Shown piece after piece: positions 16,115 to 40,004 of a stretch of DNA of 64,000 bases. Every line of letters starts with the position of its first letter. The first letter of the stretch is position 1. A program made the translations under genes and the position numbers. The notes under the pieces are model-generated. The model did not search any database and was not told the origin of the DNA. It was given only the letters and a program-made list of their open reading frames with translations. Source of the stretch: a bacterium (GTDB lineage Bacteria; Desulfobacterota; Deferrisomatia; Deferrisomatales; Deferrisomataceae). The stretch spans positions 1 to 64,000 of the forward strand of contig JALUTY010000114.1 of assembly GCA_027021615.1 (NCBI GenBank), written 5' to 3'.

Positions 16115-16424
16115 CTGGTCGGCAGCGTGTCTCCATGGGATCCACGTGGTGGCACAAGGGGATCCCCTCCTGGGTCATCCCCACCCCGATCACCACCTGG
16201 CGTCGGCCCCCTCGGCCGTCCCGGCTGTACCCGTACCGGCGAAGGTCGTCCTCGCCGTTCGAGGATCGGTTCCCCTCGCGGTTCACCACCAGAAGCCGGA
16301 TCATCTCCGACGCCCCGAAGGAGGACTGGCCCTCCAGGCCACTCTCCCGCGGGGCCTCCGTCAACCCGAGGCGATCCCACAACTCGCCCACCGCGTACAC
16401 ATGACCATGATCTCAAGCGCTTAG
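16115..16424 (-). pseudogene. Degenerate IS1634-type transposase fragment
   Basis: Reading the minus strand, VGELWDRLGLTEAP, SSFGASEMIRLLVVNR and GRRQVVIGVGMTQEGIPLCHH match parts of the intact transposase at 560-2245, but the parts are joined by an internal deletion and both ends are missing. The copy is related to, not identical with, the intact element. Similarity at the nucleotide level continues to the base where the MITE at 16425 begins, so the MITE inserted into this remnant. Confidence 0.85.
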
Positions 16425-16602
16425 CCCGCATGATTCATGAGCGTTCGTCGCGAAACCGTCGAGTGTGCGTCAGATCGGGGCAAGCACGAGCACACGAGGG
16501 GCGCAGGCGTACGGGACGGTACGTCGAGCCCCGAGGCACGAGCACGCCCCGAGATGGCGTGCAGTCGGCGGTTGCAGCGGAAGGCTTCATGAATAATGCG
16601 GG
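16425..16602. mobile_element. 178-bp MITE, copy 1, with TTAG target duplication
   Basis: The ends are CCCGCATGATTCATGA (16425-16440) and TCATGAATAATGCGGG (16587-16602), inverted repeats of 16 bases with one mismatch. TTAG flanks both sides (16421-16424 and 16603-16606). A second copy in the opposite orientation at 39174-39351 has the same length and about a dozen differences. There is no transposase gene; an open frame in the interior is shared by both copies but has no start signal. Four-base duplications are known for the IS1380 family, which could supply the transposase, but that is inference. Confidence 0.85.
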
Positions 16603-16701
16603 TTAGGGCAAGAGCTTCTCCGGCAGGCTTCCTCTCCCCCACCTTCAAGAAGTGTCAAATCCGAGGTGCTCGCCCATCGCCCGGCTCTTTGAACCCTGGC
16701 G

Positions 16702-33341: not shown

Positions 33342-33510
33342 ATAATAGCAGATGGGTTATTTTTGTCAAGGACATTTTCTCTGGCACGGTTGGACGCCCT
33401 GCTTCGCCATCCCTGGCTTCATTATGAAGAATTCAGAAGCCCTTCACGGTTCTCTCACGGCCCGGCGGCTGCGCTGGGGCGCGGATCGATGGTGACCCCG
33501 GTGCGCCGGG

Positions 33511-33660
33511 TGCTCCCACGCCGCGACCATCGACGCCGACGGCCAGCTGGAGCCCGAGCAGATCCCGGAGCTCCTCGCGGTCGCACGGTCCCGGCCCCGG
33601 GACCTGCTGGTGGTGGGCCCCCGGGACGTGCGCTTTCTCTCCTGCCCGGACCAAGGGCTC
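33511..33660 (+). pseudogene. Fragment of a family 2 glycosyltransferase
   Basis: The frame beginning near 33511 reads AATIDADGQLEPEQIPELL and DLLVVGPRDV, matching the nucleotide-sugar-binding DxD region and following strand of GT2 enzymes ('TIDADGQHDPxDIP'). The N-terminal third and everything after about 33650 are missing or out of frame. The remaining 33661-33981 contains only short frames that I cannot assign. Confidence 0.55.
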
Positions 33661-33981
33661 ACCGCGTGCCTGCTCGCGGGAGGCGGGCCGCTGGTGGGGG
33701 GCCTGACCGCCGAGCTCCGGGCCTGGCGTCCCACGCTCCTCGTGACCCCCGCGCTGGAGAACCGTCACCCCCGCCACCACAGCGGGGAAGCAGGGGGGAT
33801 CCAGCCCTTCGGGCCGGTTCACCCTGCGCCTGGTCGGGGTGCGCCCGGGCGGCGCGATCGAGTCTCGCACCGTTCGAGCGGCGGCCTCGGCGCCTCGTCC
33901 CCCGCCCTGGGTGGCGCCGGACCCTCGGGCCTGCTGGTTCGCCAAGGTGGAACGGCGGTACGGCTTCTTCGATAGGGCCGG

Positions 33982-34562
33982 ATGGCTTCGGTTCGTCCCG
34001 GAGCCCACCCGGCGGGTCGGAGCGGAGGGGCCTTGTCCCTCGGCCTCATCCTGCTCGGTGCCGGCGCCGCGGCAGAGCCGGGCTCCCCCGGGGGCGTCCC
34101 TGGGGCCTGGAGGAGGGCCCGCCGCATCCTCCGGGAAGGGTGCACGGGCCTGTACCTCTCGGGCTATGCCTACCACGGCCGGGGGACGTACGATCGTGCG
34201 AGGCTCGACGACCCGAACAAGCATGCCTGGGGCATCGGGGCCGGCCGATCCCTAGACAGCGGCCCCCGCCACCACGAGGGCCTCTCTACGTGATCGCCAC
34301 CCGCGACTCCCACGGCGAGATCCAGGCAGCCGCCGGGTACGTGCGCACGTTTCTGCCCGTGGGTCACCCCGGGGCTCGGTTTCACGCCGTTCCTGCGGTC
34401 CCGGGCGGACGTGCTCGGCCGCCTCGCGTTCCCCGCGGTGCTCCCCGTGGGCACCCTCGAGCTCGGCCGGGCGGCTCTCGTGATCTCGTACCTGCCCCCC
34501 GTGCCGGGCAGGCGAACTTCGCCGACGTGCCTAGCGTGCTCGTCCGGCTGAGCCTTCGGTAG
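33982..34562 (+). pseudogene. pagP: Frameshifted lipid A palmitoyltransferase gene
   Basis: A signal-peptide-like start (GGALSLGLILLGAGAAAEP) is followed in frame by TGLYLSGYAYHGRGTYDRA, NKHAWGIGAGRS and HHEGL. These match PagP, the outer-membrane enzyme that adds palmitate to lipid A; the active-site His is in YHGRG. A two-base insertion (CTCTCT) shifts the frame to LYVIATRDSHGEI, which has the catalytic Asp-Ser pair. Further shifts lead to GLGFTPFLRSRADVLGRL and finally NFADVPSVLVRLSLR before TAG at 34560. At least three frameshifts are needed, so the gene is not functional as written. Confidence 0.7.
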
Positions 34563-34727
34563 CGCCTCGCAAGCCGGGTGCCTCACCGGCCCCCCGATCT
34601 TCACGCCTTCTTCAGAGTCCGTTCACGCCCCCTTCAGAGTCCGTTTCCTACCCTGTCTCCAGTCCCTTCCCGCAGCACTCGCCAGCCCGCCGCCTGCCGT
34701 CCCGGCGGCGAAGACCAGGGGCAGCGC

Positions 34728-37379
34728 ATGGTCTCGGTCATCGTGCCCACCCGGAACGAGCGCGAGAACATCGAGGAGCTTCTCGGGCGGACCTTGGCGG
34801 CCCTCCCGGCCGTGGCCGAGCCCTCCGAGGTGGTCGTGGTGGACGACGACTCCCCCGACGGCACCGCCGCCGAGGCCCTGCGGGTGGCGGAGGCCCTGGG
34901 GGCCGGGGAGCGGGTGAGGGTGATCGTCCGGCGGGGCGACCGGGGCCTGGCCCGGGCGGTGGCCCGGGGGATCCGGGAGGCCCGGGGCGACCTGCTGGTG
35001 ATCATGGACGCCGACCTCTCCCACCCTCCGGAGCTCCTGCCCCGGCTGGTGGCCGAGGTCCGCCGGGGCGGCTCGGACTTCGCTGTGGCCAGCCGCCGCG
35101 TGCCCGGGGGAGGGGCCGCCGGGTGGCCCCTGGGGCGCCGGGCCGTGTCGTGGGCGGCCGGGCTCGCGGCCCGCCCCCTGGTTCCGGTGCGCGACACCAC
35201 CTCGGGGTTCATGGCGTTTCGCCGGTCGCGCCTCGACGGCGTGCCCCTGGCGCCCCGGGGCTACAAGATCGTCCTGGAGATCCTGGCCCGCACGGGCGCC
35301 CGGCGGGTCGCGGAGGTCCCGTTCGTGTTCCGGGACCGACACCGGGGCACGAGCAAGCTCTCCGGGCGGGTGGCCGGCGCGTACCTCGTGCAGCTCGCCG
35401 GCCTTTACCGCCACCGCTTCCCCACGGCGGTGCGCTACCTCCAGTTCTGCCTGGTCGGCGTGGCCGGGGTGGGGCTGGACTGGGCCGTGTTCCACGCCCT
35501 GTACCGGGGCGCCGGGCTCGACCGGTTGGGCGCGGCCGCCGGGGGGCTCGCCGCCCAGGCCCTGTCGTTCCTCGCCGCCGTGGGGGTCAACTTCGCCCTG
35601 AACGCGGCCTGGACCTTCCGCGATCGCCGGGAGGGCGCGCGCTTCGGCGCCTTTCTCGCCGTGTGCGCCGGGGGCCTGGCCCTGCGGTCCGTGGCCTTCG
35701 CGGCCGTGGTGCAGGCCTTGCCCGGCCCGGGGGGGGCCGGGCCGGGCCTTCCCGTGGCGCGCCTGGCCCTGGTCGCCGGCATCGTGGTGGCCAGCGCCTG
35801 GAACTTCGCGGGCAGCATCCGCTGGGCCTTCCGGGCCGGCCCCCGGCCTCCCCGCAGCCCCGGGGGCCCTGAGAATCCGGACCGCCGGGCCCTGGCCCTG
35901 GTGCTGGGGCTGCTGCTCGTCCGGCTGGCCTTCGCGGCCGTGATCCCCCTGTCCGGGGACGAGGCCTACTACTGGCAGTGGTCCCGGCACCTCGCCTGGG
36001 GCTACTACGACCACCCCCCGATGATCGCCTACCTCATCGCCGGGGGGGTGCGCCTGGCCGGGGACACCCCCCTCGGCGTGCGCCTGGGCGCCGTGGTGCT
36101 CTCCTCGGCGGCCGGCTGGCTCCTCTACGTGCTGGCGCGGGACCTCTGGGGCTCGGCGCGGGCCGGTCTGTGGGCCGTGGGGGCCGCGAGCGCGGCGCCC
36201 CTGCTGGCCGCTGGGGCCCTGATCGCCACGCCGGACACGCCCCTAGTCTTCTTCTGGACGGCGTCGATCGCCCTCGCCCTGGGGGCCCTCCGCTCCGGCC
36301 GGCCCCGCGACTGGGCCCTTGCCGGCGCGGCCGTGGGCCTGGGGCTCCTGAGCAAGCACCCCATGGTGCTGCTTCCCCCGGCCCTCCTGGCGGGGCTGGC
36401 CGCGTCGCCCCGGGGGCGCAGGGCCCTTCGGGGCCCCGGCCCCTGGATCGCCGCCGGGGTGGCGGTGCTGGTGAGCCTGCCCCTGCTCCTGTGGTACCTC
36501 GGCCAGGGGGGCGCGCCGGTGCTGTACCAGCTCCGCCACGGCCTGGGCCCGGCCGCCGGCGCCCCGAAGGCGGCCACCGGGGTGCGCACCTTCGCCAGGT
36601 TTCTGGCCGGCCAGGCCGGCGTGGTCACCCCGTTGCTCTTCGGCGTGCTGGTGTGGGCCGTGTGGTGGAGCGCCCGGGCGTGGAGGCAAGGCCTCCCGGG
36701 CCGGGAGGAGGCCGGGCCCGCCGTGCCCCTGCTCCTCTGCTCTGCCCTCCTCCCGTTCCTCGTGTTCGCCGCGGCCAGCTGGCTTGCCCGGAGCGAGCCC
36801 AACTGGGCTGCCCCCGCCTACCCGGCGGCGTTCGTCCTGCTGGGGGGCGGGCTCGACCGGCTCTCCCGCCGCCCGTCCCGCCGGGCCCGGGCCCTGGCCT
36901 GGGCGGCCCTGTCGACCGCAGCCCTGGTCACGGCGGCCGCCCAGGTGGAGCTGGCCGCGGCCGTGCTGCCCCTGCGGGCGGGGCCCGTGCGGAAGCTCCA
37001 CGACCGGTCCGGGGTCATGGCCTGGGCCCAGCGGCTCCGGCAGCAGGTCGATCCCGGGGCGCCGGTCCTGGCGTCGGGCTACCGCCTGGCCAGCCTCCTG
37101 GCCTTCCACCTCCCGGACCACCCCGAGACCGACTCCCCCTTCGAGACGGGCTCCGGGAGCGCGTACCTGGCCTGGCGCACCCCCCGGCGCGGGGGGCACA
37201 GCGCCTGGTTCTTCACCCCGGACGCCTCCCCCGACGAGCCCGAGCGCCTGTTCACCCGGTACGAGCTTGTCGGCGCCCGAGACGACGTGCGCAGGGGGGT
37301 GCGGCTCGAGACCCTCCGGGCCTACTACGGCCGGCTCCGACCCGGGCCGGGGGAAGCGGTGGCGGAGGCCCGGCAATGA
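34728..37379 (+). CDS. Fusion protein: GT2 polyprenol-phosphate glycosyltransferase, GtrA domain and GT39/ArnT-like transferase
   Basis: The 883-residue protein has three parts. Residues 1-230 are a dolichol-phosphate-mannose-synthase-like GT2 domain (VSVIVPTRNEREN, VVVDDDSPDGT, IMDADLSHPPELL). Residues 233-370 are a GtrA-type four-helix membrane domain (RYLQFCLVGVAGVGLDWAVF). Residues 386-883 are a multi-spanning GT39/PMT_2 transferase with the ArnT-like DEAYYWQWSRHLAWGYYDHP motif carrying the catalytic Asp-Glu. The parts would make a polyprenyl-phosphate sugar, move it across the inner membrane and transfer it in the periplasm. I chose the ATG at 34728, directly before the GT2 motif. The acceptor is unknown; lipid A is one option. 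Confidence 0.88.
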   Translation: MVSVIVPTRNERENIEELLGRTLAALPAVAEPSEVVVVDDDSPDGTAAEALRVAEALGAGERVRVIVRRGDRGLARAVARGIREARGDLLVIMDADLSHPPELLPRLVAEVRRGGSDFAVASRRVPGGGAAGWPLGRRAVSWAAGLAARPLVPVRDTTSGFMAFRRSRLDGVPLAPRGYKIVLEILARTGARRVAEVPFVFRDRHRGTSKLSGRVAGAYLVQLAGLYRHRFPTAVRYLQFCLVGVAGVGLDWAVFHALYRGAGLDRLGAAAGGLAAQALSFLAAVGVNFALNAAWTFRDRREGARFGAFLAVCAGGLALRSVAFAAVVQALPGPGGAGPGLPVARLALVAGIVVASAWNFAGSIRWAFRAGPRPPRSPGGPENPDRRALALVLGLLLVRLAFAAVIPLSGDEAYYWQWSRHLAWGYYDHPPMIAYLIAGGVRLAGDTPLGVRLGAVVLSSAAGWLLYVLARDLWGSARAGLWAVGAASAAPLLAAGALIATPDTPLVFFWTASIALALGALRSGRPRDWALAGAAVGLGLLSKHPMVLLPPALLAGLAASPRGRRALRGPGPWIAAGVAVLVSLPLLLWYLGQGGAPVLYQLRHGLGPAAGAPKAATGVRTFARFLAGQAGVVTPLLFGVLVWAVWWSARAWRQGLPGREEAGPAVPLLLCSALLPFLVFAAASWLARSEPNWAAPAYPAAFVLLGGGLDRLSRRPSRRARALAWAALSTAALVTAAAQVELAAAVLPLRAGPVRKLHDRSGVMAWAQRLRQQVDPGAPVLASGYRLASLLAFHLPDHPETDSPFETGSGSAYLAWRTPRRGGHSAWFFTPDASPDEPERLFTRYELVGARDDVRRGVRLETLRAYYGRLRPGPGEAVAEARQ

Positions 37380-38908
37380 GGCCCTGGCGTGCGCCGGGCC
37401 CCGCGGCGCGGCGGGCATGGGTGTGGATCGGCCTATGTGCCCTGACGCTCGTCTCATTCCTCCCGGCCGATCCCCAGGGGCCCTTCGACGCCCGCGACGG
37501 GTCCCCGGTGCCCGGGGTCCACCTGGAGATGCCCCTGTCCGCCGTCCTGGCGGAGCCCCTGGCCGCCCCGGTCCACGTGCTGGCCGGGGCCCCCGACTTC
37601 CGCCGGGCCGGCATCGCGACCCTCCTGTGGGCGGCGCTGGGGGCGGCCGGGCTCCGGCTCGTTCGGAACCGGGGCACGAGGGGGGGGCGCAGGGTCCTGG
37701 GGGCTGCCGGGGCTGGGCTCGCCGCCGCGGGGGTCCTGGCGGCGTGGCTGGGGTTCGGCGTGGCGGTGCGCCTGCCCGGGTGGCGCCTGGTGTGCGACGA
37801 CCCGGCCTGGATCGTCGCGGACCTCCAGACCCACACCTACGGCTCCCACGACGGGCTCGTCTCCGGGGCCGCCAACCTGGCGGCCCACGCCGCCTCCGGG
37901 TACGACGTGGTGGCCGTCACCGAGCACAAGCGCCCCGACGGCGCTTTTGCGGCGCTCCGCGCGAGCCGGTCGGGCGCCCGGCCTGGTCCGGGCGCGATCT
38001 CCGGGGTGGAGGTGCGAAGCCCCCGGGGCCCCTACCTCCTGGGGATCGGGCTGCGTCCCGGCATCGGCCTGCCCGGCCGCAACGGCCGCCGCGACCCCAC
38101 GTTCGAGCGTCGCTTCGTCCGGGCGGTACACCGGGACCACGGCGGCGCCGTGATCGCCCTCTCGTACCGGCTCTCCCCGGCCGACGTGGGCCGCCTGGCC
38201 TCCCTGGGGGTCGACGCGTTCGAGATCGCCAACCAGGGGCACCCGGCGCTGCGACCCGAGGTGCGGGGGGCCCTGCTGGCGGCGTCCCGGGACCGGGGCA
38301 TCCCCCTGGTGGCCTCCACCGACTGGCACGGGTGGGGCGGGCTGTTGCGCACCTGGACCTTGGTGCGGCTGCCCCGGCCCGGGGGGGAGCGGGCCGGGGG
38401 GCTCCTCCGACTCCTGCGCCGGCACCGCCGGGACGCCTTCGTCCCCGTGGTCGCCGGGGCCGTCAGCAGGCCGGGGTGGCTCCGCACCCTGACCGCACCC
38501 CTCACCGAGACGGTGCGCTACGTCCTGGAGCTCTCCCCCCTCCGGGTCCTGGTCTGGTGGGCCTGGGCAGGGACCGTGACCCTGCTGGCGGCCGGGCTGG
38601 AGCGAAGGGGGGCCCGGCCCGGCCGCTGCCTGCTCGGGCTCTCGCTGTGGGTGTTCGCCGCCGGGCTCGGGTACCGGGGGGCCCGGTGGCTCGCCGCCTG
38701 GGCCGCCGGAGCGACCGCCTCCTCGTTCCCCGCCGGGGTCGGGGTCGCTACGACCGGTCTGGCCCTGGCGTGCACTGCCGCGGGCGCTGGCCTCGTCCTT
38801 CCGGAGCTCAGGGCCCTCCACCGGAGCCGGGGGGGCCGCCCCGCAGCCGGGCACGCCCCCGAGCTCCTGGCCCCGGCCGTGGCAGAGGACGCACGAGCAC
38901 CCGGGTGA
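37376..38908 (+). CDS. Membrane protein with PHP phosphoesterase domain
   Basis: The 510-residue product overlaps the upstream gene by four bases (ATGA), so the two are translationally coupled. About three hydrophobic segments fill residues 15-140. A PHP metal-dependent hydrolase domain follows (about 146-345) with VADLQTHTYGSHDG, VVAVTEHKRPDG, GVEVRSPRG and STDWHGWG. Further membrane segments lie at about 390-490. The first motif has Gln where PHP enzymes usually have His (DLHTH). The domain probably faces the periplasm or cytosol face next to the membrane. Function is unknown; coupling suggests work on the glycolipid made by the upstream fusion. Confidence 0.75.
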   Translation: MRPWRAPGPAARRAWVWIGLCALTLVSFLPADPQGPFDARDGSPVPGVHLEMPLSAVLAEPLAAPVHVLAGAPDFRRAGIATLLWAALGAAGLRLVRNRGTRGGRRVLGAAGAGLAAAGVLAAWLGFGVAVRLPGWRLVCDDPAWIVADLQTHTYGSHDGLVSGAANLAAHAASGYDVVAVTEHKRPDGAFAALRASRSGARPGPGAISGVEVRSPRGPYLLGIGLRPGIGLPGRNGRRDPTFERRFVRAVHRDHGGAVIALSYRLSPADVGRLASLGVDAFEIANQGHPALRPEVRGALLAASRDRGIPLVASTDWHGWGGLLRTWTLVRLPRPGGERAGGLLRLLRRHRRDAFVPVVAGAVSRPGWLRTLTAPLTETVRYVLELSPLRVLVWWAWAGTVTLLAAGLERRGARPGRCLLGLSLWVFAAGLGYRGARWLAAWAAGATASSFPAGVGVATTGLALACTAAGAGLVLPELRALHRSRGGRPAAGHAPELLAPAVAEDARAPG

Positions 38909-39173
38909 TCAAGGCCGGCCCGGGGGCCGCGGGCTCTGCTCGGCCTTGGACCTGCCACTCACCGCCGTGGCTGAGGACACACAGGCGTTCGTATGACGAG
39001 GCCAGGTCCACCCCGCCCTGCTGGGCCTTCAGGGGGATTGGGAAGTTGCCGAAAAGGCAGTTTGAGACCTCGTCGGATCGTACTCCGAGGCCGCGGTGAG
39101 CCAAGGGGCCACACCCGGTGCTCCGGTCGGCCCCTTGCCCCCCGACCCGGGGGAGGGAAACGCGCCTGCCTAA

Positions 39174-39351
39174 CCCGCACTATTCATGAAGCCTTCTACT
39201 GCAACCGCCGATTGCACGCCTTCTCGGGGCGTGCTCGCGCCTCGGGGTTCGATGTACCGTCCAGTACGCCTGCGCCCCTCGTGCGCTCGTGCTTGCCCCG
39301 ATCTGACGCACACTCGACGGTTTCGCGACGAACGCTCATGAATAGTGCGGG
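39174..39351. mobile_element. 178-bp MITE, copy 2, with CTAA target duplication
   Basis: The ends CCCGCACTATTCATGA (39174-39189) and TCATGAATAGTGCGGG (39336-39351) are perfect inverted repeats of 16 bases. CTAA flanks both sides (39170-39173 and 39352-39355), the complement of the TTAG seen at copy 1, in keeping with the opposite orientation. About 93 percent of positions match copy 1. The preceding 38909-39169 holds no gene I can support. Confidence 0.88.
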
Positions 39352-39354
39352 CTA

Positions 39355-39377
39355 ACCTGGATGAATGACATCCAGGT
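39355..39377. other. Perfect 9-bp stem-loop before the hemerythrin gene
   Basis: ACCTGGATG (39355-39363) and CATCCAGGT (39369-39377) form a perfect stem with a five-base loop, immediately next to the MITE end and 50 bases before the hemerythrin start. No T tract follows, so it is not a typical terminator. It could be a regulatory hairpin or a scar of insertion. Confidence 0.5.
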
Positions 39378-39427
39378 AGGAGAGAGCGGCTTGAGTGTTA
39401 AGGCAAGAAAGAAAGGGGCTTCAAGAC

Positions 39428-39829
39428 ATGCTTTACATCGTATGGGCAGAAAAAAACCACCTGGGAATTCCTATCATAGACGAACAGCACCGAGGGGTGG
39501 TGTCAACCATTAACTCGCTACACTACTTTACCTGGCACGGAGAGGGGGTAAAAGCCATAAAACCAACGCTGGGCATGCTAGAACAGTATACGTTTGTTCA
39601 TTTCGAGACCGAAGAAGAGCTGATGAGAAAAGCAGGCTATCCATATTTTAAGGACCATGAATTGCTACATAAGAAGCTCATGGCAAGAACGGTGGAGATC
39701 GCTCGCCAGTCCGTTTCTTGGAAGGATTCTGAGATAGTGCTGTCGTTTCTGAAGGAGTGGTGGTTGAGGCACATCAATATAGAAGACAGAAAGTATGCGC
39801 CACACGTAAGAACTCATCTGGGGATCTGA
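39428..39829 (+). CDS. Bacteriohemerythrin
   Basis: The 133-residue four-helix protein carries the ligands of a non-haem diiron site: His in IPIIDEQHRG, HFETEEE (His and Glu), HELLHKK (two His) and WLRHINIED (His and Asp). Such proteins bind oxygen and act in oxygen sensing or delivery. The ATG at 39428 has AAAGGGG about nine bases upstream. The gene is distinctly richer in A and T than its neighbours and lies next to a MITE, both signs of recent acquisition. Confidence 0.92.
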   Translation: MLYIVWAEKNHLGIPIIDEQHRGVVSTINSLHYFTWHGEGVKAIKPTLGMLEQYTFVHFETEEELMRKAGYPYFKDHELLHKKLMARTVEIARQSVSWKDSEIVLSFLKEWWLRHINIEDRKYAPHVRTHLGI

Positions 39830-40004
39830 CGACCGCGCGCTGGCCGCTGTCCCGTGGGAAGCTTGGGGGGGCTTGAACGGAGACCGGTCCGGCCAGGGAG
39901 CTCTCGGGCGTGAGAGCCGGCGGGCGGCTGGTACCGAGTTGCCCTTGGATGTGACGCCGGTTCGGCGTCGAGGGCGTGAACCTCGCTCCCGGCCGGCCAC
40001 GGCC

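Follow-up and report, generated by a model that had tools for sequence, protein, structure and literature searches.

The dolichylphosphate mannose synthase (DPMS) of Pyrococcus furiosus (PfDPMS; structures 5mlz and 5mm1), whose donor is GDP-Man, carries a GT2 catalytic domain followed by four transmembrane helices in one chain (PMC5526996), and ends after this transmembrane domain with no GT-C transferase attached. ArnT, whose structure is known from Cupriavidus metallidurans (5ezm/5f15), is a separate protein with a GT-C fold that uses a polyprenyl-phosphate sugar donor. In GtrA-GtrB-Gtr(type) systems, and likewise in PP0035-PP0033 of P. putida, which is under the control of ColRS, three functions are distributed over three genes. 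The P. putida operon, in which the GtrA-family gene PP0035 is accompanied by ArnC-like and ArnT-like genes, contributes to zinc tolerance (PMC4074579), and PP0035 showed the strongest response to ColR over-expression, at 30-fold (PMC2689224). Footprinted ColR sites in this organism consist of TTCAC/TTCA at 11-bp spacing (PMC2689224). For the GtrA-related protein GtcA, residues R95 and N132 are required for wall-polymer glycosylation, and F74, F91, and K121 also matter (PMC7389260). PMC11127046 states that, for the exporters it covers, flippase activity lacks direct evidence.

Here we describe a gene predicted to combine the same three functions in one chain of 883 aa, found in a 64,000-nucleotide stretch of DNA from a member of the Deferrisomataceae (GenBank assembly GCA_027021615.1, contig JALUTY010000114.1, positions 1 to 64,000; hereafter the window). 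No description of a three-domain fusion of this kind was found in the openly accessible literature. As detailed below, the fusion is a variant of three-component glycosylation systems that consists of a single chain; it is undescribed yet occurs widely, and is not unique to this organism.

Results

A single reading frame joins GT2, GtrA, and GT-C domains

The fusion gene occupies positions 34728..37379 of the forward strand, with an ATG at 34728 and a TGA at 37377-37379 bounding a single unbroken frame of 883 codons. Judged against curated Pfam cut-offs, its product contains Glycos_transf_2 at residues 3-167 (111 bits against a cut-off of 23.3), GtrA_DPMS_TM (PF04138) at residues 239-368 (63 bits against 26.1), and PMT_2 at residues 428-589 (117 bits against 26.1). 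These scores and coordinates confirm the proposal, made earlier in a sequence-only reading that had suggested a domain search as a check, that GT2, GtrA, and ArnT-like parts are united in one 883-residue chain. The accompanying statement that two to four proteins normally share these functions is only partly correct, because GT2 and a four-helix membrane domain are already united in one chain in PfDPMS.

The GT2 (GT-A fold) domain (34734..35228, + strand), whose fold reaches to about residue 229, contains the DxD motif (D94/D96) as well as H99, K180, R204, and S209-K210. It is followed by a four-helix transmembrane domain of the GtrA/DPMS type (35442..35831, +), defined by both Pfam and the structural model, and by a GT-C membrane domain (35883..37049, +; residues 386-774), recognized from Pfam, from a Foldseek match to ArnT, and from a profile match to ArnT. 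Motifs in the latter include DE (411-412), YDHPP (427-431), TPD (501-503), and SK (542-543). The chain closes with a soluble region (37050..37376, +; residues 775-883) in which the models show mixed alpha/beta secondary structure.

In the fusion frame, GC at third codon positions is 0.94-0.98 from ~34800 to ~37200, and the phase shifts only at the next gene. Because this signal stays in one frame with no internal phase switch, it is very unlikely that the ORF contains a frameshift or was created by an assembly join.

Both catalytic parts retain expected folds and residues

An AlphaFold2 model of the whole chain, built from 49 sequences, had a mean pLDDT of 87.2 and a pTM of 0.78, and placed the helices of the GtrA part at residues 234-261, 269-296, 304-330, and 341-367. 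When the model was compared with the PDB by Foldseek, the N-terminal half matched PfDPMS (5mlz; E 5.6e-20, TMt 0.75) and the C-terminal half matched ArnT (5f15/5ezm; TMt 0.59-0.60). Modeled alone, the GT-C half reached a pLDDT of 89 and a pTM of 0.91, and ArnT was its top match (E 3.4e-9), with OST, PMT4, and ALG9/ALG12 among the further matches. A sequence profile of the family also found ArnT, at 7.8e-6.

PfDPMS is the nearest solved protein by sequence as well, with 35-36% identity over ~379 aligned columns, and the two proteins have metal- and phosphate-site residues in common. Mapping of the PfDPMS active site onto the window protein showed that five of seven residues are identical (D39, G68, A90, H94, and K178, corresponding to D40, G73, A95, H99, and K180), while Y10 is replaced by R9 and F177 by Y179. 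Identity to ArnT is 17-18%; the PP and D motifs align in periplasmic loops, with the KPP of ArnT represented by HPP in the fusion, and the ArnT equivalog model NF009784 gave only 27.3 bits against a cut-off of 567. In an alignment of 41 fusions, comprising the window protein and 40 fused relatives, the DxD motif, H99, and R204 of the GT2 half and E412, D428-H429-P430-P431, D503, K543, and W693 of the GT-C half were invariant or nearly so, and this extended to the whole YDHPP and SK motifs. The sequence-only reading had raised the prospect that one of its parts might lack catalytic residues in close relatives, and for the two catalytic halves this was not the case. The first part thus combines a GT-A fold with a DxD motif and DPMS active-site residues, as in DPMS-type (GT2) enzymes, and the last combines a GT-C fold with a PMT_2 domain; given the kept residues and the fold matches, both catalytic parts look active.

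The fusion architecture is widespread

Among the best 80 loci from GTDB species genomes, at least 34 named genomes carry all three domains in one ORF. These single-ORF fusions, all uncharacterized, are mostly 860-920 aa long, keep a constant domain order in unrelated assemblies, and are ~27-36% identical to the window protein. They were found in Nitrosomonas/Nitrosospira and relatives, Acetomicrobium and another member of the Synergistales, Pararhizobium, Rhizobium, Shinella, Ancylobacter, Methyloceanibacter, Desulfoprunum, Desulfonema, Planctomycetota, and others. The fusion had been presented as unusual, with a survey of its frequency proposed, and this distribution, from ammonia oxidizers to Synergistota, contradicts that view. 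In a further 19 of the best 80 loci, a GT-C gene comes almost immediately after a GT2-GtrA gene; such adjacent split pairs occur in Bradyrhizobium, Roseibium, Stappia, and Acetobacteraceae. Across 395 genomes from the phylum of the window genome, we detected at least three further full fusions and at least one GT2-GT-C protein without GtrA, counts that are lower bounds, as two candidates were scored per genome.

In trees of the GT2 half and of the GT-C half, most fusions formed one clade, and the window protein and the fusion from genome G068 (L021) fell outside it in both. AU tests did not reject topologies in which the window protein joins the main clade (p 0.33 and 0.24 for the two half-trees), so that a single origin and multiple origins of the fusion are both compatible with the trees. 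One fusion, L038 (325-2466, 713 aa), in which GT2 is joined directly to GT-C with no GtrA domain, grouped inside the split-pair relatives in each of the two half-trees, making at least one independent fusion event likely.

The GtrA part is the most variable

GtrA is the least conserved part among the fusions. The domain scores only 20-27 bits in L074 and L084, and in L095 and L106 the GtrA model no longer matches, though a stretch between GT2 and GT-C remains. Since GtrA is degenerate in these fusions and absent from L038, a flippase role for this part is unproven and should be considered a reasonable hypothesis, not a result. There is close to an even chance that the GtrA part does no more than provide a DPMS-type synthase with its membrane domain while another protein carries out the crossing, which would make the fusion functionally two-component. 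This reading gains support from PfDPMS, the closest solved relative, in which four comparable helices constitute the synthase's own transmembrane domain, and from the fact that both catalytic halves are intact in the fusions with a missing, unmatched, or weak GtrA domain. The comparison with GtcA points the other way, provided that its residue placement, made by spacing only, is correct: the putative equivalents of R95 and N132 are mostly kept, as R320 in 38 of 40 sequences and N359 in 30 of 40. By the same spacing, F297 is kept, and no lysine matching K121 was found. L038, as a naturally occurring fusion without this domain, offers a way to test if GtrA is required.

A leader box predicts two-component control

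The leader of the fusion gene, in the portion shared with congeners, contains four TTCA motifs at 11-bp spacing, arranged as two 22-bp direct repeats (34600..34643, +), which represent a candidate site for an OmpR/ColR-type response regulator. With respect to its TTCA half-sites and their 11-bp spacing, this box resembles the ColR sites of P. putida. It is the one perfect site in the window, where no chance match is expected, and a perfect box occurs only twice in the genome: in the fusion leader and upstream of a lipoprotein gene adjoining a two-component pair (response regulator and histidine kinase) that resembles CzcRS/CopRS. The same box lies upstream of the corresponding lipoprotein gene in the congener G002, again adjoining that two-component pair, whose CzcRS/CopRS-like family assignment in G002 rests on scores below the models' cut-offs. 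This predicted lipoprotein (L141 11424-13061 and L148 5554-8353), with the TTCA box upstream and the two-component pair adjoining, has an internal duplication. Two-component genes also directly adjoin the fusions L045, L065, and L067.

The 16-bp ColR core, (T/C)(T/C)NA(C/G)NN(T/C)TTTTT(C/G)AC (consensus from PMC2689224), was unmatched in the leader, where the best half-site has two mismatches, and the TTCA box was found in none of the leaders of the other fusions examined. Given the unmatched T-tract core and the lack of the box in other fusions, metal/envelope-stress-type two-component control of the fusion is a prediction.

Candidate acceptor and sugar

LpxC is present in the window genome, and this, together with the apparent metal/envelope-stress-type two-component control, would make LPS/lipid A or another envelope glycan the likeliest acceptor. 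A protein or a glycan other than LPS is also conceivable as acceptor, but in our judgment rather unlikely; in that case, the PMT_2 part would resemble a protein mannosyltransferase in its action, serving protein O-glycosylation or the side-branching of a surface polysaccharide. The Pfam family is named after such enzymes, PF02366 PMT also scores above its cut-off in the fusion protein (30.5 against 22.7 bits), and the Foldseek matches described above extend to OST, PMT4, and ALG9/ALG12; however, ArnT is the best match by fold as well as by profile, and the predicted regulation resembles that of LPS-modification regulons.

Aminoarabinose was considered as the sugar and rejected as unlikely because no ArnA, an enzyme of Ara4N supply, was detected above cut-off in the window genome (best score 136 bits against 777). 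Fusion neighborhoods across lineages contained no consistent genes and none naming a sugar. Depending on the lineage, the neighbors include a GalE-like epimerase, a heptose-phosphate kinase, a dTDP-glucose dehydratase, and, judged from sequence reading, fatty-acid genes, and since they differ between lineages, we do not infer a sugar from gene context. The window genome additionally encodes a separate GT2-GtrA gene (C30) and a separate PMT_2 gene (C34), so that different systems could draw on common parts. At C34:117569-119200, it contains a second, closely spaced pair of GT2 and PMT_2.

Congeners carry a remnant of the fusion gene

Downstream of the fusion lies a gene for a membrane-anchored PHP/CehA-McbA-like metallohydrolase of 510 aa (37376..38908, +). 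Its start codon overlaps the fusion stop codon in the sequence ATGA at 37376-37379, which makes translational coupling of the two genes probable. After the G068 fusion, this overlapping position is taken by a gene for a calcineurin-like phosphoesterase.

The fusion gene is absent from the congeners G001 and G002. The congener copy of the downstream gene is 73% identical and has the same leader in front, and in G002 the downstream protein begins with MASITVPTR, resembling the MVSVIVPTR of the fusion, before continuing with its own sequence; the DNA of G001 shows the same junction. The congeners therefore conserve the leader and first nine codons (34588..34753, +) with the rest of the gene missing (34754..37403, +), codon 9 of the fusion being joined to the N-terminus of the next gene. 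The simplest reading of this junction is a deletion of ~2.65 kb. Because the downstream gene of the congeners opens with the first nine codons of the fusion, comparison of these loci indicates that the fusion was present in the ancestor of the genus, and the nine-codon scar, together with the conserved leader, makes it very probable that translation does begin at ATG 34728. Recent acquisition by the window species, suggested by the lack of the gene in congeners, was rejected on the basis of the same nine codons.

The sequence flanking the window locus matches, at 93-98% identity, a region of G002 that lies 1.1 Mb from G002's copy of the downstream gene, indicating that the fusion cassette has moved in one lineage. 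In this matching region, ~2.1 kb replaces the 6.6 kb between the flanks (33416-39991). Within positions 34001-38000, the fusion and downstream gene have a GC content of 76-78%, compared to ~68% around them. On the 3' side of the cassette is a 184-bp element (39171-39354) with 19-bp terminal inverted repeats (TAGCCCGCACTATTCATGA), a member of a MITE-like family with another copy at 16422-16605. The genome contains ~70 ends of this kind, and many of them form pairs with this spacing. Upstream of the leader, positions 33416-34560 hold a decayed-looking coding region with fragments in different frames, which is absent at the matching G002 locus. Pieces of this region were judged by eye to be GT2-like (DADGQLEPEQIPELL) and deacetylase-like (RAWRPTLLVTPALENRHP), and two pieces that were tried gave no Pfam match.

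The deletion in the G001/G002 lineage, with nine codons left behind, might be taken to mean that the genus can do without the fusion or that it has lost its function there; with the frame and all conserved residues intact in the window genome, we regard this as quite improbable. That two genes were joined into this ORF by an error of assembly or annotation, a concern of the sequence-only reading for which one could cite the congeners without the gene and the 134-contig draft state of the genome, is ruled out for practical purposes by the uniform third-position GC in one frame, the identical architecture in 34 other named genomes (among the best 80 loci), the conserved start region in congeners, and the 36% identity to the G068 fusion across residues 3-853.

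Discussion

The protein is probably a single-chain, stress-regulated, polyprenyl-phosphate-dependent envelope glycosylation enzyme, that is, the single-chain form of a three-component extracytoplasmic system. Its fold and kept residues suggest that the cytoplasmic GT2 part would charge polyprenyl phosphate with a sugar taken from a nucleotide donor, as do DPMS, ArnC, and GtrB. The four-helix GtrA/DPMS domain would anchor the synthase at the membrane and bind the polyprenyl chain, and it may also aid membrane crossing of the lipid-linked sugar. The C-terminal GT-C part would then act at the periplasmic face, as ArnT does, and pass the sugar to an acceptor from polyprenyl-phosphate-sugar, the type of donor known for ArnT and inferred for the fusion.

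That the fused domains might channel the lipid-linked sugar, as had been suggested earlier, is plausible. A more specific version, in which the GT2 product passes via GtrA straight to GT-C with no release into the lipid pool, all under ColRS-like metal/envelope-stress control, strikes us as doubtful. If true, this arrangement would constitute a minimal self-contained Arn/Gtr pathway and would allow a direct test of GtrA flipping.

Flipping by the GtrA family is widely assumed, yet not directly shown in the literature examined, and a lone chain that holds synthase, GtrA, and transferase could be reconstituted, making it directly testable. The family offers a ready comparative series for this, consisting of fusions with GtrA, fusions with a degenerate GtrA, fusions without GtrA, and adjacent split pairs. 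Moreover, the predicted two-component link suggests inducible envelope modification outside the well-studied Gammaproteobacteria.
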